Below, piece after piece: positions 6,540 through 36,834 of a DNA stretch of 63,421 nucleotides (position 1 is the first letter of the stretch; each line of letters starts with the position of its first letter). The notes beneath the pieces were generated by a model, which saw only the letters and a list, made by a program, of their open reading frames with translations, was not told the origin of the DNA and did not search any database. Both the position numbers and the translations under genes were made by a program. This stretch comes from an uncultured Bacteroidales bacterium (GTDB taxonomy: Bacteria > Bacteroidota > Bacteroidia > Bacteroidales > F082): the NCBI GenBank assembly GCA_946185535.1, contig CAMHJX010000019.1, positions 1 to 63,421 on the forward strand. The letters run 5' to 3'.

Positions 6540-6592
6540 AACTTATCAAATCAATTACGTCGCAATCAGAGAATGTGATAGAAAAAGTTGTG

Positions 6593-25652: not shown

Positions 25653-27518
25653 TTAGTCCACGCGTTTATGAAGATACGAGTTCTCCCCGCTAATGCCGTA
25701 TTGGGAAGCCGAATAATCCGACAATTCCTCATCGGCTTGGTTGATTTCCACATTGCGGCGCAAGTAAGCGGGTTGGTTTTCCAGTTCCTCCAATCCACGA
25801 GCCGTCCTGAAGTTCATGCTCAAGGCGCGCAGACGCTGCTTTTTCAGTTGCTCTTTCGGGTCGGCTTGCTTGGCTTTCTTGGCCTCCAACACGGCGATTT
25901 CCTGCTCGGCTTTGGCTTGAGCCTCTTCCTGTGTGATGATGCGCGAGGTGATTTCGAAACCGTCATCATCGTTACTGCTGCTTGAGCGGAAGGGATTGTC
26001 GAACACCCTCACCACGGGTTTTTCTTCTTCATAATGGATCGTGCGAGGGGTTTCTGGAACAGGAGCCGGTGTTGGTTCAATGGTAGGCTCGAAGAGTGGT
26101 GTGTCGTCTTCTGTAGATTGGGTCGGCCCTTCGACAGGCTCAGGGACCTTGGGCTCAACGGCCTTAGGCTCGACAGGTTTTATAGTATTGGTCGGCCCTT
26201 CGACAGGCTCAGGGACCTTAGGCTCAGGGACCTTAGGCTCAGGGACCTCGGTAACTGGAGTGAACAAGGAATGGACCGTCTTTTCTTCATGTTTTTCAAC
26301 GGGCTGTTCTTCCTTTGGAAACACCTTCTCAACCTCGGTAGCCGCAACCGAACCCACAGCCAGATTTGCCGGCTGAGCAGGTTCTTCGACCTTTCGGCTC
26401 TGCTCAGGGGTCTCAGTTGTTTCGCCTTTCACCTTGCCACTCAAGTCGTAAACCTTCTTCGGCTGGACAGGGCCGGCAGGGTTGACAGGGTTCTGCTTTT
26501 CGGCAATAACAGCACTGTAAGGCTTGGCATCGTGGTTGAAACCCGTGGCAATCAAGGTGACGCTGAGAGCCTCGCCGAGGCTTTCGTCAGTGCCATTACC
26601 CCAGATGACATCGGAGTTGTTGCCGCACGCGTTCTGGGCGATTTCGAGGATTTCGTCCACTTCGTCCAAGGAGACTTCGTCAGTGCCCGAGGTGATATAA
26701 AGCAGGATGTTTTTCGCACCCTCAATATTCGAGTCGTTGAGCAGAGGCGAATGGATGGCGTCTTTGATGGCTTTCTCGGCGCGGTTCTCGCCTTCGGCGA
26801 CTCCCGAGCCCATAATGGCCTTGCCGCTGTCTTTCATGACGGTCTTCACATCCTCGAAGTCGACATTGACATAGCCAGGCACGGTGATGATTTCAGCGAT
26901 GCCTCGGGCTGCCGTGGCCAACACATCGTCAGCCTTCTTGAAAGCTTCGGAAAGCTTCATGTTGCCGTATTGGTCGCGCAGTTTGTCGGTGCTGATGAGA
27001 ATGAGCGTATCAACACACTTCTTCAATTCATCGATGCCCGACAAGGCTTGCAGCTTGCGGCGACGGCCTTCGCGCTCCATAGGCATGGTAACGATGCCTA
27101 CGGTGAGAATGCCTTTATCCTTGGCCATCTTGGCCACCACGGGAGCAGCGCCAGTGCCCGTACCGCCACCCATACCAGCGGTGACAAACAGCATTTTGGT
27201 ATCGTCATCCATCAAAGCCTCAAGCTCGTCGCGGCTCATCTCGGCGGCTTCGCGACCGATGTTGGGGTCGTTGCCGGCACCCAACTCGCGTTTGCCAAGG
27301 TGAACGGTGGTCTTGACCTTACTCTTCAGCAAAGCTTGATGGTCAGTATTGCAAAGTACAAAGTCAACGCCTTGGATGCCTTCCTCCATCATGTGGTTAA
27401 CAGCATTGCCACCGCCGCCACCGACACCGATGACCTTGATATAGTTGGGTTTCTCCACGTCAACGGGCTTGAACAACTCGTTTTGGGCGTTTGGGTTAGT
27501 CATGTAGTCTTCTGCCAT
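25653..27518 (-). CDS. ftsZ: Cell division protein FtsZ with expanded C-terminal linker
   Basis: A 621-residue tubulin homologue. It has the N-terminal GVGGGGGNAVNHM, the tubulin signature GGGTGTGAAPVVAKMAKD (about residue 120) and a normal GTPase/polymerisation body to about residue 340. After that comes a linker of roughly 270 residues, much longer than usual, rich in Pro/Glu/Lys, with repeats of KVPEP and PEPVEGPT at about 420-470. The end (QPAYLRRNVEINQ, then NSYLHKRVD) matches the conserved C-terminus of Bacteroidota FtsZ, which binds FtsA. FtsZ polymerises at mid-cell to build the division ring. It is last in the dcw cluster, 20 nt after ftsA, with a terminator downstream. The linker repeats coincide with a REP-like DNA motif (26130-26250). 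Confidence 0.97.
   Translation of the reverse strand: MAEDYMTNPNAQNELFKPVDVEKPNYIKVIGVGGGGGNAVNHMMEEGIQGVDFVLCNTDHQALLKSKVKTTVHLGKRELGAGNDPNIGREAAEMSRDELEALMDDDTKMLFVTAGMGGGTGTGAAPVVAKMAKDKGILTVGIVTMPMEREGRRRKLQALSGIDELKKCVDTLILISTDKLRDQYGNMKLSEAFKKADDVLATAARGIAEIITVPGYVNVDFEDVKTVMKDSGKAIMGSGVAEGENRAEKAIKDAIHSPLLNDSNIEGAKNILLYITSGTDEVSLDEVDEILEIAQNACGNNSDVIWGNGTDESLGEALSVTLIATGFNHDAKPYSAVIAEKQNPVNPAGPVQPKKVYDLSGKVKGETTETPEQSRKVEEPAQPANLAVGSVAATEVEKVFPKEEQPVEKHEEKTVHSLFTPVTEVPEPKVPEPKVPEPVEGPTNTIKPVEPKAVEPKVPEPVEGPTQSTEDDTPLFEPTIEPTPAPVPETPRTIHYEEEKPVVRVFDNPFRSSSSNDDDGFEITSRIITQEEAQAKAEQEIAVLEAKKAKQADPKEQLKKQRLRALSMNFRTARGLEELENQPAYLRRNVEINQADEELSDYSASQYGISGENSYLHKRVD
26130..26250. repeat. REP-like TTCGACAGGCTCAGGGACC repeats inside ftsZ
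   Basis: The 19-mer TTCGACAGGCTCAGGGACC occurs at 26130-26148 and 26199-26217. The second copy runs into three tandem 15-mers GGCTCAGGGACCTTA/CTCG (26206-26220, 26221-26235, 26236-26250). On the coding strand they read KVPEPVEGPT and KVPEP in frame. The same 17-mer core occurs in the intergenic palindrome at 31029. Confidence 0.8.
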
Positions 27519-28910: not shown

Positions 28911-29675
28911 TTATCGTTTTGTACAGACTATTTGATTTTTATAATTCAGATTGATGCTTTTCAAGGTCTTGGTCTCAGGGCTCTCGACGCGCTGCTTCAT
29001 GAAGATTTCCAAACGCTTCAGTTTATCCGAGGCATCGCAGGTGTCCCCCACAATCACTCTACCATCGAAGCCCTTCACAGTGAGTTCGAACTGGTTTCTT
29101 TTGTTGCAATAAAGTTGCCCGATGCAATGGCTCACAAAGTCATTCCCCTCAATGGCTTCGCACCAATGCAAGGCATTCAGCAGGTTCCGGTCGCTTTCAA
29201 GGGTATCGGTAAGTTGATAAGTGACCGAGTCACTCCTAAGCTCAAAATTGCCGCTGGTCACCAACACATAAGGTGTATAGGTACGGCTCGAAGGGATAAC
29301 GAAACCTTCGCGGGTGACATAGACGGAATGTCCGTTCTTGCCAAACACCCTAAACCATGGCTCATATTCCTGGAAACTGACATTAAGCGTACCGTCAAGG
29401 TCGATGTATGAAGCACTGTTCTCTATCCAAGCGTTGCTTTCCAATGCTTTTTGGATGGCAATCATATTGACAGTACCGATGTTCGACTTGCCACAAATCC
29501 GTCCGATCTCGTCGTGCAATGCCGTCTTCCTGACAAAGCCCGTATCAGCAGCTGGAATCAGCTGGATTGACTTCAAAGGCGTGGTCAAGTAGTTCTCTCT
29601 CGCGAAGACGAACAAAACCACCAGTCCAGCGGCTGTGGCAACCCACAATAATATGCTCAATATCTTCTTTACCAT
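28911..29675 (-). CDS. ftsQ: Cell division protein FtsQ/DivIB
   Basis: A 254-residue bitopic membrane protein. One N-terminal transmembrane helix (about 5-24, ILSILLWVATAAGLVVLFVFA) is followed by a periplasmic POTRA-like region (IGTVNMIAIQKALESNAWIENSA) and beta domain ending in SINLNYKNQIVC. Sequence conservation in this family is low; the call rests on the membrane topology, the POTRA pattern and the position between murC and ftsA. It overlaps murC by 7 nt and precedes ftsA by 4 nt. It links early and late divisome proteins. Confidence 0.9.
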   Translation of the reverse strand: MVKKILSILLWVATAAGLVVLFVFARENYLTTPLKSIQLIPAADTGFVRKTALHDEIGRICGKSNIGTVNMIAIQKALESNAWIENSASYIDLDGTLNVSFQEYEPWFRVFGKNGHSVYVTREGFVIPSSRTYTPYVLVTSGNFELRSDSVTYQLTDTLESDRNLLNALHWCEAIEGNDFVSHCIGQLYCNKRNQFELTVKGFDGRVIVGDTCDASDKLKRLEIFMKQRVESPETKTLKSINLNYKNQIVCTKR

Positions 29676-31012
29676 GTCTTTATCAGTTCTTCAAGGGGTT
29701 CAACAAAACGGTCAATGTCGCCAGCACCCATCGTAATCAGCAACTCAGGCTTTTCGCTGTCAATCAAGCCGATAAGCTCCAACTTTGAGCAGACTCTCTT
29801 GTTAGCCATCGGGACCTTTTCCAATAAGGCGGAAGAGGTGACACCTTCGATGGGCTGCTCACGGGCAGGATAGATGTCCAAGAGAATAAGTTCGTCGGCC
29901 AAAGCCAAAACCGATGCGAATTCGTCCATGAAATCGCGGGTACGGCTGAACAAATGAGGTTGGAAAACCAATGTGATGCGTTTTCCAAGATATGAAGCTC
30001 TCACGGCGGTCAAGCAGGAACGAATTTCCTCAGGATGATGTGCGTAATCATCTATATAGCAATGTTTTTCATTGTTGACACGGATATCGAAGCGACGCTT
30101 CACGCCTTTAAAGCTCGACAAAGCCTCAGCAATGGCCTGTGCTGGCAATCCCACTTGACGAGTTGCAATGAAGGCAGCCGTGGCATTCAGCACATTATGG
30201 TTGCCTGCCATAGGCAACCTAACCTCAGTCTTTTGGCCTTCGCCTTCAATCACGAAATCCGTGACACCTTTTTCTGACTTGACAACTTCGGCACGGTAGT
30301 CACAAGTTTCACCAAAGCCGAAACGAATGCAATTCTCCACCTCGATGTCCAAGCCCTCTTTGACGATGACTTTATCCTGTGTGAGATGCGCGAAGTCGTT
30401 GAAACTCTGCACCAAATGCTTTCGGTCGCCATAGATGTCCAAGTGGTCGGCATCAATGGAATTGATGATGCTAATGTTGGGATGAAGTCGCAGGAAGGAA
30501 TGGTCGAACTCATCGGCCTCCACAACCAAAGTGCTATCCGTGCCTTCACCCAAAAGCAGGTTGCTATTGAAGTTGTTGGCGATGCCGCCGATGAAAGCGG
30601 TGGTGTTCACTTTGCATTGATGCAAAATATGAGCAACCATAGCCGTGGTTGTAGTCTTGCCATGCGTGCCAGCCACCGCGATGGTGAAGTGACCTTCCGT
30701 GATTTTGCCCAAAGCTTCAGCGCGTTTCAGAATCGGCAGGTTGCGCTGTCTGAGAGTCTCAAACTCTTTGAGGTCGTATGGCACAGCAGGAGTGTAGATG
30801 ACCGACTCAATGAGGGCGGGCAATAAGTTGTTGTTATCTTCATAATGGATTGCCACGCCCTCATTTTCCAATTGCCGAGTCAGCGGAGAAGGCGTGCGGT
30901 CGTAACCTGCCACTGTGTAGCCCAGGCTACGGTAATACCGAGCCAAGGCGCTCATCCCGATGCCGCCAATGCCTAAAAAATAAATCGTATGTCCTTCTCC
31001 GTGTTTCATCAT
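29669..31012 (-). CDS. murC: UDP-N-acetylmuramate--L-alanine ligase
   Basis: A 447-residue Mur ligase, close to the usual length. It has the N-terminal UDP-binding start IYFLGIGGIGMSALARYYRS, the ATP-binding VAGTHGKTTTTAMVAHIL (about 108-125), the central EADEFDHSFLRLHP and the C-terminal DDYAHHPEEIRSCL. It adds L-alanine to UDP-MurNAc, the first amino acid of the peptidoglycan stem, in the cytoplasm. It overlaps ftsQ by 7 nt; the 84-nt gap to murG contains a REP-like palindrome. Confidence 0.97.
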   Translation of the reverse strand: MMKHGEGHTIYFLGIGGIGMSALARYYRSLGYTVAGYDRTPSPLTRQLENEGVAIHYEDNNNLLPALIESVIYTPAVPYDLKEFETLRQRNLPILKRAEALGKITEGHFTIAVAGTHGKTTTTAMVAHILHQCKVNTTAFIGGIANNFNSNLLLGEGTDSTLVVEADEFDHSFLRLHPNISIINSIDADHLDIYGDRKHLVQSFNDFAHLTQDKVIVKEGLDIEVENCIRFGFGETCDYRAEVVKSEKGVTDFVIEGEGQKTEVRLPMAGNHNVLNATAAFIATRQVGLPAQAIAEALSSFKGVKRRFDIRVNNEKHCYIDDYAHHPEEIRSCLTAVRASYLGKRITLVFQPHLFSRTRDFMDEFASVLALADELILLDIYPAREQPIEGVTSSALLEKVPMANKRVCSKLELIGLIDSEKPELLITMGAGDIDRFVEPLEELIKTW

Positions 31013-31028
31013 TCTTTCTTTTCAGGGG

Positions 31029-31068
31029 TTCGACAGGCTCAGGGACCGAAGTCCCCAAGCTTGCCGAA
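31029..31068. repeat. REP-like palindrome between murG and murC
   Basis: TTCGACAGGCTCAGGGA (31029-31045) and TCCCCAAGCTTGCCGAA (31052-31068) are inverted arms matching at 13 of 17 positions with a 6-nt loop. The left arm is identical to the core found twice inside ftsZ. Confidence 0.7.
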
Positions 31069-31096: not shown

Positions 31097-32194
31097 TCAA
31101 ACAATAACATTAACAATTTGATCTACAATATCATCAGCAGCATTCGGTCGGGCGAACTTGCCGATGTTTTTACTTAATTTATCCTGCAACTCATGATCGT
31201 CTTTCAGTCGGAACAAAGCTGGGACGAGTTCTTTCTCCGCATCAGCGTTGCGCACCATAAGGGCGGCTTCCGCATCGACGAGTTGCTGGGCATTCTTGGT
31301 CTGATGATCTTCGGCTGCCGTGGGCAGGGGCACGAAGATGACAGGCTTTTGCACCAAGGCCAATTCCGAGATCGACATAGCACCTGCACGCGAGATGACC
31401 ACATCGGCAAGACCATATGCCAAATCCATGCGGTCGATGAAGACGGTGGGCTTCACCTGATTTTCAAGCCCCAAAGCTTTCACCTCGGCTTCAGCTTGAC
31501 TAATGTATGTCTTGCCCGTCTGCCAAATGAGTTGCAAATCACTGTCCTTGAAGGCAGCAAGTTGCGCACTGATGCCCTTGTTGATGCCTAAAGCACCTTG
31601 GCTGCCACCAACTAACAAGGCGACAGGCTTCGTCGGGTCGAGATTAAAGAACTCAGCTGCTTCTTCACGAGTACCATTGAGGGTGATGTTGGCCCTCAAG
31701 GGGTTGCCTGTGAAGTGTATCTTCTCAGCAGGGAACCATTGGTCGAGATGGTCGTAGGCTACGCAAATGGCTCTTGCCTTCTTTCCTACATTGCGGTTAG
31801 TCTTGCCCGGATAGGAGTTCTGTTCCTGTATGACAGTTGGGATGCCGAGGTAATTGGCAGCCATCAAGGTAGGTCCGCTGGCAAACCCACCAACGCCAAT
31901 CACCACATCGGGCTTGAAGCGCTTCAGGATAGCAATGGCATGGTTGATACTACTCGTTAGCTTTAAGGGAAGTAAAAGCGACTTGATATCTCTGGTCATG
32001 CCACTAATCCACAGCCCCTCAATACGATAGCCAGCCTTAGGCACTCTTTCCATCTCCATGCGGCCTTTTGCACCAATAAAGAGGATGTCGGCCTCAGGAA
32101 ACCTCCGTTTCAAGGCATCTGCAATGGCAATGGCGGGAAAGATGTGACCGCCTGTGCCACCACCACTAATCACGACTTTCAGGTTCTCTTTCAT
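31097..32194 (-). CDS. murG: Undecaprenyl-PP-MurNAc-pentapeptide GlcNAc transferase MurG
   Basis: A 365-residue GT-B glycosyltransferase. N-terminal glycine loop VVISGGGTGGHIFPAIAIADAL and second G loop IGVGGFASGPTL; the C-terminal domain carries GGSQGALGIN and the sugar-nucleotide site VVISRAGAMSISELALVQKPVIFVPLP, AAEDHQTKNAQ. It transfers GlcNAc to lipid I, making lipid II at the inner leaflet of the membrane. Its start overlaps the end of ftsW by 29 nt. Confidence 0.97.
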   Translation of the reverse strand: MKENLKVVISGGGTGGHIFPAIAIADALKRRFPEADILFIGAKGRMEMERVPKAGYRIEGLWISGMTRDIKSLLLPLKLTSSINHAIAILKRFKPDVVIGVGGFASGPTLMAANYLGIPTVIQEQNSYPGKTNRNVGKKARAICVAYDHLDQWFPAEKIHFTGNPLRANITLNGTREEAAEFFNLDPTKPVALLVGGSQGALGINKGISAQLAAFKDSDLQLIWQTGKTYISQAEAEVKALGLENQVKPTVFIDRMDLAYGLADVVISRAGAMSISELALVQKPVIFVPLPTAAEDHQTKNAQQLVDAEAALMVRNADAEKELVPALFRLKDDHELQDKLSKNIGKFARPNAADDIVDQIVNVIV

Positions 32195-33455
32195 CTTCAG
32201 TAGTTTCTGTAAGTGCTTGTATCTCTTGTTCTTTATTCATTTCCTCGTCTTCCATGCTCCGCGTAACGCTCAATATCATGCCCAAGATAAGACCCGTGGC
32301 CATCAACGAGGTACCGCCCATGCTTACCATAGGTAAGGGCTGTCCCGTGACCGGCAGCAATCCTATGGAAACACCCATGTTAATCATCGCCTGCAAGATG
32401 ACCAAAAAGCCCAATCCGAAGGCCATCAGCGCGCCAAAACTGAGCGGACGCTTGATGACGATGCGCAGCACCCGAGTGAAGAGAATCACATAGAGCAGCA
32501 ACACGACAATACCACCAATGAGTCCGTATTCCTCTACAATGATGGCATAGATGAAATCGGAATAAGGGTGCGGCAGGAAGTTACGCTGCTCACTCTTTCC
32601 TGGGCCTTTGCCAAAGACCGAACTCGAAGCTACGGCAATGTCGGCGTAGGTGCGTTGCAAATGCTTATCATCAAAGGGGTCGACTTTCTCCTTGTCCTCT
32701 CCCATCGACTTCAGGCGGTTGGTCCAAGTCTGGATTCGGTTCTGCCTCACCTTATATATTTCTATCGATTCACCTTTAGCCAAGGCTTCCTGCTGAGCCT
32801 TCACGCCACGATTGTTCAGGATGCTGGTCTTGGCGGCATCGAAGCCCAAATAAGCGGCCATGCCAATAATACAAATCCCGATAAGTGCCAAAATGTGGAG
32901 AATCTTTACCCTACCGATGAAAAGCAGTACGAGGCATACCGCTATCAAAATGACAGCAGTGGAGAGGTTCTCGGAGAAAATCAAGGCAGCCGTCAACAAG
33001 ATGGGCGCGGCTAATTTAATTAGGAAGTCTTTGAAAAGATAAACCGAGCCTTCCATCATAATGATCTGGCGCGACAAGTAGGTGATGAGGATGATTTTGG
33101 CCATCTCACTGGGCTGGAACGAAAAACCGCCAAGATTGATGGAACGGCTGGCATCGTTGATGTTGCGGCCGAACACCAAAGTGTAGAGCAACAAGGCCAA
33201 GCTGGGAATCATAAGCAGCAAGGCCAGCTTCGCATAGCGCTTGTAGTTGATTCGCGAGGCACCAATCATCATCAATATGCCGAAAACCAGCATACCCAGA
33301 TGCTTCATCATCAGGCGACCCGTGTTGCCATCGTATTTTGAGACTGCCAAGACGCTGGTGGCGCTATACACCACAATCAGCGAGATGATGCTCAAAATCA
33401 AGGCGACAATCCAAATCACCTTGTCACCCTTCATTATTTTATTGATGACGTTCAT
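32166..33455 (-). CDS. ftsW: Peptidoglycan polymerase FtsW (SEDS family)
   Basis: A 429-residue SEDS protein with about ten hydrophobic segments. Family features include FSFQPSEMAKIILITYLSR near the SEDS catalytic region, and the C-terminal LLPVTGQPLPMVSMGGTSL. It polymerises lipid II glycan at the septum with its partner FtsI. The end of the truncated murD overlaps its start by 17 nt and its own end overlaps murG by 29 nt, so expression looks tightly coupled. A second Met at residue 8 (33434) is a possible alternative start just after the murD remnant stop. The protein ends in a charged cytoplasmic tail. Confidence 0.96.
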   Translation of the reverse strand: MNVINKIMKGDKVIWIVALILSIISLIVVYSATSVLAVSKYDGNTGRLMMKHLGMLVFGILMMIGASRINYKRYAKLALLLMIPSLALLLYTLVFGRNINDASRSINLGGFSFQPSEMAKIILITYLSRQIIMMEGSVYLFKDFLIKLAAPILLTAALIFSENLSTAVILIAVCLVLLFIGRVKILHILALIGICIIGMAAYLGFDAAKTSILNNRGVKAQQEALAKGESIEIYKVRQNRIQTWTNRLKSMGEDKEKVDPFDDKHLQRTYADIAVASSSVFGKGPGKSEQRNFLPHPYSDFIYAIIVEEYGLIGGIVVLLLYVILFTRVLRIVIKRPLSFGALMAFGLGFLVILQAMINMGVSIGLLPVTGQPLPMVSMGGTSLMATGLILGMILSVTRSMEDEEMNKEQEIQALTETTEDEREPESRD

Positions 33456-34002
33456 GCTCCATTCTCCTTACGGTTTCAGTGAATTGGCTGCCGCGTTCGG
33501 TGTAGGTCTCCCCTGTCGCCGATTTGCAGGCAGGCGAAAACAGCACAATATCGTTGTCCTGGGCAAGCAATGAAGCCAAATTGACTGCTTCATCGATGCT
33601 CTCAACTTCAAACAAATCCGTTATGTCTTTATGAAAAGCCTTCTTCAACTTGGCATTGCCCTCACCAACACAAACCATGGCTCTCACCTTTTGCTTCACG
33701 ACCTTTTTCAAGTCCTTGAAATCAGCCATACTGTCGTCACCACCCGCAATCCAAACGACAGGTTTGACGATGTTCTGGAAGGTGAACCAAGTGGCGTTGA
33801 CATTTTCGGCACGCGAATCGTCGTAATACATCACACCGTCAACAGTGGCAATATACTCCTGACGATGGTCAACAGTATTCAAGTCACTGAGGCTCAGTTT
33901 GATGCTCTCCTTCCTGATTTGCAAAACCTTTGATGATATACTTGCCACCATAGTGGAGGGCTGCTTGGGTTTCGTGTTGATCAATTCCTCAAAATAAGTC
34001 AT
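33439..34002 (-). CDS. murD: Truncated MurD: C-terminal ligase domain only
   Basis: A 187-residue product in the murD position of the dcw cluster. Full MurD is about 445 residues; this one keeps only the end of the central domain (STMVASISSKVLQIRKESI) and the C-terminal ligand-binding domain (HRQEYIATVDGVMYYDDSR, VKPVVWIAGGDDSM, VLFSPACKSATGETYTERG). The UDP-binding domain and the ATP P-loop are absent, and the 93-nt gap to mraY cannot hold them. Residues that contact D-Glu in MurD also differ: DSKATNV is DSRAENV here, and the SPACASFDLF segment has become SPACKSATG. The ORF is otherwise intact and overlaps ftsW by 17 nt. It cannot by itself add D-glutamate; it may be a remnant kept for coupling or have a new role. 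Confidence 0.85.
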   Translation of the reverse strand: MTYFEELINTKPKQPSTMVASISSKVLQIRKESIKLSLSDLNTVDHRQEYIATVDGVMYYDDSRAENVNATWFTFQNIVKPVVWIAGGDDSMADFKDLKKVVKQKVRAMVCVGEGNAKLKKAFHKDITDLFEVESIDEAVNLASLLAQDNDIVLFSPACKSATGETYTERGSQFTETVRRMEHERHQ

Positions 34003-34010
34003 GGTTGATT

Positions 34011-34095
34011 AGTTGTTCAGTTGTCAGTTATTCAGTTGTTCAGTTAAAATGTTCGATTCTTGAATTTTAAATCTTGAATCTTTGAATTATCAAAT
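34011..34095. repeat. Low-complexity intergenic repeat upstream of truncated murD
   Basis: AGTTGTTCAGTTGTCAGTTATTCAGTTGTTCAGTT (34011-34045) is a tandem of CAGTT[AG]TT-type words. It is followed by TTGAATTTTAAATCTTGAATCTTTGAATT, related to the repeats at 439-513 and 54002-54036. It occupies exactly the place where the missing 5' part of murD would have been. Confidence 0.65.
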
Positions 34096-35373
34096 CTATC
34101 TGATTTTAAATGTAAGAAGCGTGAATGCAGCCAGCAAGATGGTGACAATCCAGAATCGAATGGTAATCTTCACCTCATGATGGACGGTATTGAATCCTTC
34201 TCCACGCCCCTTGAAGGTGACGGTGGAGTTGGGCCAAGCTTTCTTGAAGTCACTATAGCTGGTGCGGAAGTGGTCATGCAAAGGACCTTTCTTCCAAATG
34301 CGGTGCTTCTTACCCGTCTTGACAAAGCGCTTCACGTCCAAGTCGGAAAGGATCTCAAACAGGAACACGCCGCAAAGCAAAGGCAACAGCAACTCCTTGT
34401 GCATAATGATAGCCGACACCGCGATGATGCCACCGATGGTCAGGCTACCCGTGTCGCCCATAAAGATCTGTGCCGGGAAAGAGTTGAACCACAAAAAGCC
34501 GACAAGGGCACCTACAAAAGCAGCCATAAACACGACAAGTTCCTCACTTCCTGGGATATACATCACATCGAAATGGCTAGCTGTGACCGCATTACTGGAG
34601 ATATAAGCCAAAATGACCAATGTAATTCCTATGATGGCCGAATTGCCCGAAGCCATACCATCCATACCATCGTTGAGATTGGAGCCGTTGCTGACAGCAG
34701 CCACGACAAAGACAGTAAGCAGCACAAAGAAAATCCATGCAAGGTTGTACATCCACTTGGGACCAGCCCACTTGAACAAGTCGGCATAATTGAGGTTGTG
34801 GTTTTTCAGGAACGGAATGGTGGTCTTTGTCGACTTCACATCGGGACTCTTCACCACGATTTCCTTGTTATCCTCAATCTTCAACTGTACGGTCTCATTG
34901 ATTTGCACCGCAGGGCTGAAACGCAAGGTCAAGCCGACAAGGAGACCGAGCAGAATCTGTCCGCCTAACTTTACAGCAGGCTTCAATCCGTCTTTCTTGC
35001 CTCTAAAGGTCTTCACAAAGTCGTCGGCAAAACCTAAGACTCCTAAAATCAATGTAGTGGCAATCATCAAGATGGTGTAAACACTATGAAGTTTGCACAC
35101 CAAAAGCACAGGGATCAAAATGGCGGCAATAATGATTACGCCACCCATAGTGGGTACACCAACTTTCTTGGTGTTATATGGATCAACGGACTCATCACGC
35201 TGGGTCTCAACGATTTTCTTACGCTTCAACATCTTGATGAACCAATTGCCAAACCACACGGCCACAACCAATGAGAGGATGATGGCAACGGCAGCCCGGA
35301 AGGTGACGTAGTTGAACACACCCGCACCCGGAAAATCGCATTGTTGCAGATAATTGAACAGATAGTACAACAT
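34096..35373 (-). CDS. mraY: Phospho-N-acetylmuramoyl-pentapeptide transferase MraY
   Basis: A 425-residue polytopic membrane enzyme. It has the family motifs KKVGVPTMGGVIIIAAILIP (about 70-90), FADDFVKTF with the paired Asp residues, NLNDGMDGMASG and FMGDTGSLTIGG, and near the C-terminus KKGPLHDHF with the catalytic His region. The insert between helices, with KSPDVKSTKTTIPFL, is typical of the longer Bacteroidota MraY. It transfers phospho-MurNAc-pentapeptide to undecaprenyl phosphate, giving lipid I. It follows murE by 3 nt. Confidence 0.97.
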   Translation of the reverse strand: MLYYLFNYLQQCDFPGAGVFNYVTFRAAVAIILSLVVAVWFGNWFIKMLKRKKIVETQRDESVDPYNTKKVGVPTMGGVIIIAAILIPVLLVCKLHSVYTILMIATTLILGVLGFADDFVKTFRGKKDGLKPAVKLGGQILLGLLVGLTLRFSPAVQINETVQLKIEDNKEIVVKSPDVKSTKTTIPFLKNHNLNYADLFKWAGPKWMYNLAWIFFVLLTVFVVAAVSNGSNLNDGMDGMASGNSAIIGITLVILAYISSNAVTASHFDVMYIPGSEELVVFMAAFVGALVGFLWFNSFPAQIFMGDTGSLTIGGIIAVSAIIMHKELLLPLLCGVFLFEILSDLDVKRFVKTGKKHRIWKKGPLHDHFRTSYSDFKKAWPNSTVTFKGRGEGFNTVHHEVKITIRFWIVTILLAAFTLLTFKIR

Positions 35374-35376
35374 GGC

Positions 35377-36834
35377 TTATGCCTCCTTCAATGCTTCCGA
35401 CAACACTTCCTTGTCATCGAAATGGTTCTTTACTCCGTTGATTTCCTGATAGTTCTCATGACCTTTGCCTGCCAAAAGGATGATATCACCCCGTTTAGCC
35501 AAGGCCACAGCAGTACGAATAGCCTCGCGACGGTTGGTGATGCTCAACACTTTACCTCGGTCCTCATCGGCCACACCAGCTTTCATCTGACGAATTATTT
35601 CGTCAGGGTCTTCGTAGCGCGGATTATCGCTGGTGAGGATGACACGGTCGCTGAGCTTCACAGCGACGGCAGCCATCTCGGGACGCTTTGTGGTGTCACG
35701 GTTGCCGCCACAGCCCACCACGGTGATGAGCGTCTCCTTGTGGCAACGCACCTCATTGATGGTCACCAACACATTCTCCAATGCGTCAGGCGTGTGGGCA
35801 TAGTCAACAATACCAACAATACCTTGTTCAGAATGCACCATGTCGAAACGACCATTAGCACCACGCAACTTGCTGATTTCGACCAGCAGCTCATCCTTAT
35901 TGAATCCCAAAGCCGTAGCCGCACCATAAATGGCCAAGAGGTTACTGGCATTGAACCCGCCGACAAGTTGTGTGAACATCTCAATACCATTCACCTTAAG
36001 CAGCATACCGTCGAAATGGCTTTCCATGATGACACCTTTGAAGTCAGCATCGTGTTTCAAGGCATAGCTCAACTTGCGGGCTTGCGTGTTTTGCAACATA
36101 AACGCGCCGTTCTTGTCATCCAAGTTGGTCAAGGCGAATGCGGACTGCGGCAAACCGTCGAAGAACTTCTTCTTGGCGTTGCGATAGTTAGCCATGGTCT
36201 TGTGGTAATCCAAGTGGTCGTGCGTCAAGTTGGTGAAAATGCCACCAGCGAAATGCAATCCCGCGATGCGGTCTTGCGCAACACTGTGGGAGCTCACCTC
36301 CATAAAAGCGAACTCACAGCCCTTGTCAACCATCTGCTGCAACAAGGTGTTCAGCTCGATAGGATCAGGAGTCGTGTGCGTTGAAGGAACGACCTCACGG
36401 TTGACAATGTTCTCAATCGTCGAGAGCAAACCGCAACTATAGCCCGCTTCAGTGAAAAGCCTATATAATAAGGTGGCGATGGTGGTCTTGCCGTTGGTAC
36501 CTGTCACGCCCACCAACTTCAACTTCTCCGAAGGATTGCCGAAGAAATTGGAAGCGCCAACACCCAATACGTATGCCGAGTTATCTACTTTCACGTAGGT
36601 GACATTTTCAGCTTTTTTACGGGGCAGTTTCTCACACACAATCACCGAAGCGCCTTTTTCGATGGCACCGTCAATGTAGTCGTGGCCATCGACCTGCGTA
36701 CCTTTGACGGCAAAAAACAAAGTGCCTTGGCTTACCTTACGGGAATCGAAAGTGATGTCGGCAACATCGACATCTTTCTCTCCAACGATCTCCAAAAGGT
36801 TGCAATTCGTCAATATGTCTTTGAGTTTCATCAT
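35377..36834 (-). CDS. murE: UDP-MurNAc-tripeptide synthetase MurE (meso-DAP type)
   Basis: A 485-residue Mur ligase. N-terminal ADITFDSRKVSQGTLFFAVKG, ATP-binding GVTGTNGKTTIATLLYRLF, central FMEVSSHSVAQDRIAGL and the C-terminal ILTSDNPRYEDPDEII. The DNPR motif is the signature of enzymes that add meso-diaminopimelate rather than lysine, so the stem peptide should be of the DAP type. It overlaps ftsI by 4 nt and precedes mraY by 3 nt. Confidence 0.97.
   Translation of the reverse strand: MMKLKDILTNCNLLEIVGEKDVDVADITFDSRKVSQGTLFFAVKGTQVDGHDYIDGAIEKGASVIVCEKLPRKKAENVTYVKVDNSAYVLGVGASNFFGNPSEKLKLVGVTGTNGKTTIATLLYRLFTEAGYSCGLLSTIENIVNREVVPSTHTTPDPIELNTLLQQMVDKGCEFAFMEVSSHSVAQDRIAGLHFAGGIFTNLTHDHLDYHKTMANYRNAKKKFFDGLPQSAFALTNLDDKNGAFMLQNTQARKLSYALKHDADFKGVIMESHFDGMLLKVNGIEMFTQLVGGFNASNLLAIYGAATALGFNKDELLVEISKLRGANGRFDMVHSEQGIVGIVDYAHTPDALENVLVTINEVRCHKETLITVVGCGGNRDTTKRPEMAAVAVKLSDRVILTSDNPRYEDPDEIIRQMKAGVADEDRGKVLSITNRREAIRTAVALAKRGDIILLAGKGHENYQEINGVKNHFDDKEVLSEALKEA

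Follow-up and report, generated by a model that had tools for sequence, protein, structure and literature searches.

The closest described counterparts of the locus reported here come from two bodies of work. Xanthomonas oryzae has a MurD2/MurL route (Feng 2017, as recounted in review PMC8788868), in which a residue pair, Glu at D182 and Arg at K348, is reported to set the use of L-Glu by MurD2; the review's account of this route mentions no leftover MurD domain. In T. maritima, MurG and MreB are reported to bind MurD, MurE, and MurF (PMC6420597), and these three ligases are described as showing no mutual binding without MreB or MurG (PMC4929429). Among the matches listed in open-access literature searches, there was nothing on MurD2/MurL in Bacteroid- taxa, on truncated MurD together with dcw, or on internal starts or isoforms of MurD, and nothing on topic for Limimorpha together with peptidoglycan.

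Here we describe a standalone MurD C-terminal domain, murD-C, in the dcw cluster of an uncultured Bacteroidales bacterium. The window (the whole 63,421-nucleotide stretch of DNA that was analyzed) belongs to a genome of 3.67 Mb that is 93.5% complete, and the features of the locus are collected in Table 1. An additional ORF (28911-29675, minus strand) had no Pfam match at E 1e-5; going by gene order, we take it to be the ftsQ-position ORF.

Table 1. Features of the dcw locus, with coordinates in the window
Feature	Coordinates	Strand	Basis
murE, complete	35377..36834	-	NF001126, E 1.7e-190, above cut-off
mraY, upstream neighbour of murD-C	34096..35373	-	PF00953, E 1.5e-27
93-nt gap between mraY and murD-C, short imperfect direct repeats	34003..34095	.	
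murD-C, 187 aa, standalone MurD C-terminal domain	33439..34002	-	ORF call, TIGR01087 and PF02875
ftsW, downstream neighbour of murD-C	32166..33455	-	PF01098, E 5.6e-67
murG-position ORF, 365 aa	31097..32194	-	named from position and similarity within relatives' loci, no profile test
murC, complete	29669..31012	-	TIGR01082, E 7.2e-119, above cut-off

A single MurD domain in the murD slot

Like canonical MurD, murD-C lies in the dcw slot between mraY and ftsW and has the homologous C-terminal domain, but it is without the UDP-binding and ATPase domains, and its K319, T321, K348, and F422 columns are altered. A MurD ligase was taken to be a whole protein with three domains and a score of at least 211.95 bits, the cut-off of the MurD profile TIGR01087. 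murD-C scored 123.7 bits (E 1e-35) over profile positions 278-440 of 441, and it is made up of the end of the MurD middle domain (the linker helix) and the C-terminal domain. PF02875 (Mur_ligase_C) matched with 45.9 bits (E 1.2e-11), over the gathering cut-off of 28.4; Pfam up to E 1 gave no other match, the ATPase domain PF08245 being absent, and neither this search nor the 93 nt upstream left a P-loop of the central ATPase domain. The gap is of insufficient length for the missing domains and carries imperfect direct repeats of 19 and 22 nt. The first residue of murD-C is a Met that is internal in full-length MurD, and ftsW, which begins at 33455, overlaps the gene by 17 nt. A reading made from the sequence alone had described a 187-residue ORF covering only the C-terminal part of MurD, preceded by a gap too short for the other two domains, and the profile searches bear this out.

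The same sequence-only reading had pointed to a change of DSKATNV to DSRAENV and to remodelling of the SPACASFDLFK region. Alignment to full-length Bacteroidales MurD agrees, with DSKATN replaced by DSRAEN and SPACASFDLF by SPACKSATGE. The columns of K319, T321, K348, S415, and F422 read R, E, S, S, and G, leaving S415 as the sole one of five C-terminal ligand residues that is kept. The numbers K319 and K348 follow PMC8788868. An AlphaFold2 model of murD-C, built with 71 sequences, had a mean pLDDT of 83.6, with block means of 92-98 over residues 51-180 and 44-62 over residues 1-50. The protein matched 11 distinct solved MurD sequences, the best being 7sy9 (E 2.8e-18).

Across 29 lone domains, H301, R302, E304, and D317 were better retained than the D-Glu residues: D317 and an R or K at position 302 were present in all 29 and the Trp in 28, with K348 kept in only 7 and F422 in 12. 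R302 and D317 presumably face the nucleotide in E. coli MurD, and the way this group of residues outlasts the D-Glu contacts would suit a regulator or sensor that binds a nucleotide or muropeptide precursor and either regulates MurD2, MurE, and MurF or works with them in trans. We regard such a function as unlikely, though not negligible; none of 18 representatives has the His of the GKHN motif, there is no P-loop, and conservation of these residues may reflect no more than the needs of the fold.

Conservation and selection among relatives

The lone domain was found in 32 of 35 same-genus genomes, and the remaining three (62-72% complete) lack MraY too, so that their dcw region is missing from the assembly. 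Scanning named genomes yielded 76 loci, some of them the same contigs as in the same-genus set and one of them a record of Candidatus Limimorpha equi (Bacteroidales), which makes Limimorpha the probable genus. All 76 encode an open protein of 176-190 aa with FtsW next after it, and MraY stands before it in 72. In the other four loci (L148, L151, L155, and L156), which show no MraY match, the lone domain still precedes ftsW and has stayed with ftsW rather than mraY. The lone MurD domain is old, and the comparison with related genomes that the sequence-only reading had proposed shows that the truncation is common to the genus and not a property of this contig alone.

The named records are mostly metagenome assemblies, and the window spans a complete contig from a draft assembly, which would fit an assembly or binning artefact. 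However, the same structure recurs in 76 named records from different projects, and the lone domain lies in contigs of up to 1.38 Mb (L147) and 5.26 Mb (G183, from another family). An artefact is next to inconceivable, and a misassembly that collapsed an intact murD, which the first description had named as a refuting outcome, is contradicted by the same short gene in the 32 same-genus genomes and by the 5.26-Mb contig. The lone MurD domain in the murD slot is confirmed as a real observation with no assembly fault. The low-complexity repeats that had been placed at the deletion point do lie in the gap, but a recent repeat-mediated deletion is unsupported: the distance between mraY and the lone domain spans 6-128 nt in 72 named loci and the truncation is genus-wide, so the repeats are uninformative on its origin.

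Estimates of dN/dS, also suggested by the first description, were 0.027-0.190 by NG86 in 13 of 15 pairs (of the other two, one was saturated and one gave no result) and reached up to 0.29 by YN00, in one close pair; among five further pairs, three were saturated and the other two gave 0.064 and 0.125. murD-C is under purifying selection. In the 24 loci of 40-60% identity, the lone domain averaged 50%, FtsW 55%, and MraY 81%; the sequence of the lone domain changes more rapidly than that of FtsW and far more rapidly than that of MraY. A neutral remnant that is being lost would explain why the D-Glu contact residues drift in this genus, but we consider it extremely improbable given NG86 values of 0.03-0.19, a frame of 176-190 aa that is open in 76 of 76 loci, and, among the 50 MurL-positive genomes described below, a single apparent loss as against 45 genomes that retain a dcw copy (lone in 23, full-length in 22). 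A pseudogene reading of murD-C was rejected on the dN/dS values and the open frames.

Alternatively, the gene could be a spacer for translational coupling, in which only the frame running into ftsW counts, the protein itself being a by-product; retention for coupling alone was one of two options put forward from the sequence. Beyond the 17-nt overlap in the window, the lone domain overlaps the projected ftsW start in 43 of the 76 named loci. No overlap exists in the other 33 (range, -23 to +43 nt), and in a locus of one other family (L207) the distance to ftsW is about 290 nt. Selection acts on the amino acids, moreover, and D317 and the Trp hardly vary between truncations that arose separately. 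A mere spacer is therefore very unlikely.

A MurD2/MurL-type pair elsewhere in the genome

The source genome encodes one other MurD, full-length and above the cut-off, at C7:86401-87732; we refer to it as MurD2. The ORF directly upstream is MurL-like (NF041275, E 7.9e-78), as anticipated by the suggestion that a MurD2/MurL-type route might be encoded elsewhere. Its score of 261.9 bits over positions 5-402 of 447 lies under the 700-bit cut-off of a model that is named for Xanthomonadales. The glutamate racemase MurI was found neither in the source genome nor in any of the 35 same-genus genomes. Adjacency to MurD2 and the absence of MurI are only consistent with the predicted epimerase role of the C7 MurL. 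The MurD2/MurL locus of the source genome corresponds to L001 1480-4237 and is also seen in L086.

MurL was present in 31 of the 35 same-genus genomes and was not found in G002, G003, and G016 (71-77% complete) or in G023 (97% complete). We examined 13 MurD2 genes (from the source genome, 10 same-genus genomes, G036, and G040); all 13 combine E at D182 with R at K348, and in 12 of them MurL is part of the MurD2 locus. The arrangement thus resembles the X. oryzae route in both stereo-determining sites of MurD2, in the adjoining MurL-like gene, and in that MurI was not found, but differs in its Bacteroidales host and in a MurL of 262 bits against the 700-bit Xanthomonadales cut-off. MurD2, a predicted L-Glu ligase, and MurL, a predicted epimerase, seem able to cover the glutamate step in most carriers examined, and we infer these enzymatic activities in Bacteroidales from sequence.

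The bypass is not visible in every lone-domain carrier. G023 and G050 (98% complete) have the lone domain, yet MurI, MurL, and a MurD above the cut-off were not found in either; an assembly gap is possible in G023, and G050, which belongs to another family, is also without MurD2. The G050 lone domain lies at L083 2549-3058, and this genome shows just four Mur_ligase_M proteins.

Two side observations concern the MurD2 and MurL frames. In G019, G021, G024, G028, and G031, the MurD2 and MurL matches fall in frames of equal length (901-996 aa), likely MurD2-MurL fusions, and the MurL frames of G111 (885 aa) and G136 (949 aa) are similarly long. A repeat near GTCCCTGAGCCTGTCGAAGG occurs within the coding frames of ftsZ, murD2, and murL, where it gives PEPVEGPT-like peptides, and a single copy immediately precedes murC; such sites lie at 26128-26147, 26197-26216, and 31027-31046 of the window and at 6559, 6640, and 7856 of L086, with a mean of 0.00 expected by chance in each source.

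Distribution and repeated truncation in Bacteroidales

In a survey of 148 Bacteroidales genomes (requested completeness, at least 90%), MurL was found in 50 and MurI above the cut-off in 93, with no overlap, although one MurL-positive genome, G075, has a weak MurI-like match under the cut-off. The MurL-like genes of all 50 score under the NF041275 cut-off. Sorted by open frames, these 50 genomes comprise 23 with the lone domain and 22 with a full-length dcw MurD; of the other five, one is cut by a contig end (G136) and four are without a dcw match. The dcw position was checked in the loci for the lone domains (in G040 the contig stops on the upstream side) and for every full-length gene except that of G179, 21 of 22 in all. 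G109 (91% complete) looks like a loss of the dcw MurD: its mraY is adjoined by an ORF that, by reading, is not ftsW, and its only match (467 aa, 88 bits) scores like MurD2. G085 was rejected as a loss, since a Mur_ligase_M match in a 315-aa frame lies about 0.4 kb past the mraY match, where the locus ends. MraY was not found in G055 and G156, and these two, together with G136 and G085, are the four MurL-positive genomes left unclassified.

G050 is the one genome among the 98 MurL-negative ones with a lone domain that does not run into a contig end, and there was no other short frame among the matches listed in a phylum-wide search of 296 genomes. The candidates G041:C60, G136, and G178 were rejected as short frames whose coordinates stop at a contig end. 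In the 22 full-length MurD proteins of MurL-positive genomes, 25 of 29 checked residue columns are invariant and the other four, including N271 (D in two genes), vary in one or two genes each; by these residues, the proteins are probably still ligases. At L213 to L232, for example, the canonical MurD residues are mostly intact, in genomes that have MurL and lack MurI above the cut-off.

A tree of MurE, MraY, FtsW, and MurG, built by a quick method from 67 rows (29 lone, 22 full-length MurL-positive, and 16 MurI-positive), required 13 changes between the lone and full-length states, of which at least 8 were forced by well-supported (starred) branches. Families f27, f35, and f49 contain both states, and a single clade of 28 lone rows (all but G050) was rejected (p-AU 2.9e-5). 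Within Bacteroidales, full-length dcw MurD has been cut back to the same piece more than once. Most of the 13 changes should be separate truncations, because the return of two lost domains is unlikely; transfer of the whole cluster between lineages is an alternative.

A shared start codon and a possible internal start

One alignment column is Met in 42 of 46 distinct full-length murD genes, and 23 of the 29 lone rows also place a Met there, the Met at which most lone domains start; the residues that follow agree as well (T, L/I, E, E/D), with the reservation that the alignment may favour Met-on-Met placement at this column. Bacteroidetes mRNAs are reported to have no Shine-Dalgarno sites, initiation being tuned by low structure from -20 to +20 and by A at -3, -6, -12, and -13 (PMC6847099). 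We measured these properties around the internal Met in 22 full-length MurL-positive genes from 22 families (21 surveyed genes, not that of G179, plus G048) and in 24 MurL-negative genes (23 with MurI above the cut-off, and G107 with neither). Near the internal Met (codons 260-276), the MurL-positive genes were on average 1.74 kcal less structured than synonymous shuffles, against -0.53 kcal elsewhere in the same genes; 20 of 22 exceeded their own background (Wilcoxon p 2.4e-6), and the A content before the Met equalled that of annotated starts (0.47 in both). The MurL-negative genes gave +0.48 against -0.68 elsewhere (p 0.006) and an A content of 0.35. The signal was stronger in the MurL-positive set (p 0.011), a split chosen post hoc after a first structure scan. 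Of all in-frame internal ATGs, that of the internal Met was the least structured in 16 of the 20 MurL-positive genes that contain it, against 2.8 expected, and in 8 of 22 MurL-negative genes, against 2.6 expected.

Other results weigh against an internal start. The Met is absent in 2 of the 22 MurL-positive genes, and A at -6 is not enriched (0.15). Twelve closely related MurD2 genes have an internal peak as high as that of MurD (+3.4), and FtsW (70 genes) reaches +1.58 toward the 3' end. Sets that are small and made up of close relatives can mislead, as the MurD2 peak indicates, and we therefore relied on the matched control, in which 20 of the same loci gave peaks of +1.35 for MraY, +1.38 for FtsW, and +2.34 for MurD. 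The evidence for an internal start in full-length murD is suggestive and falls short of proof, as an AT-rich patch with a different reason for being kept would give a similar picture.

It is conceivable, if somewhat more doubtful than not, that full-length murD of MurL-positive genomes yields two products, the ligase and, from the conserved internal ATG, a separate C-terminal domain. The lone genes would then be the internal-start isoform with the long form deleted, which would account for separate truncations that restart at the same methionine, and murD-C itself was possibly first made from such a start.

Possible role of the lone domain

The first description left two options, a remnant coupled to ftsW or a new non-catalytic role, and the second is favoured because of purifying selection and the retention of the same piece in separate truncations; overall, that interpretation is partly supported. 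The association of the lone domain with MurL is partly trivial, because MurD is otherwise essential, and only the retention of the domain instead of its loss is informative. That murD-C is a non-catalytic protein under selection is highly probable. A docking or scaffold role in particular is tentative, and we would place it a little short of an even chance. Taken together, we think it reasonably likely that murD-C is a conserved non-catalytic protein, probably a docking or scaffold domain left after MurD2/MurL took over.

The ancestral MurD would have had two jobs, ligation and a structural role of its C-terminal domain, the latter being to dock cytoplasmic precursor enzymes at the MraY/MurG/FtsW complex. 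Once MurD2/MurL had taken over ligation, the UDP-binding and ATPase domains would have become dispensable and been deleted, and the docking domain would have been kept. Complexes scaffolded by MurG and MreB offer a likeness in that MurD is reported to dock to both in T. maritima, but there the whole enzyme docks, and the report's account of these complexes describes no free C-terminal domain (PMC6420597). Both the non-catalytic function of murD-C and its partners are predictions.

MurL-like genes occur in about one third of the Bacteroidales sampled (50 of 148), a group that goes unnamed in the pathway review PMC8788868, whose main text lacks the word stem Bacteroid. The lone domains represent a natural, repeated domain deletion of an essential, drug-targeted enzyme, in which, given a second route, two domains go and one stays in the cluster. 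A single small protein thereby allows a direct test of the structural role that has been proposed for Mur ligases at the membrane complex. If the internal start is true, murD would encode two products, the shorter of which would have a structural role of its own.
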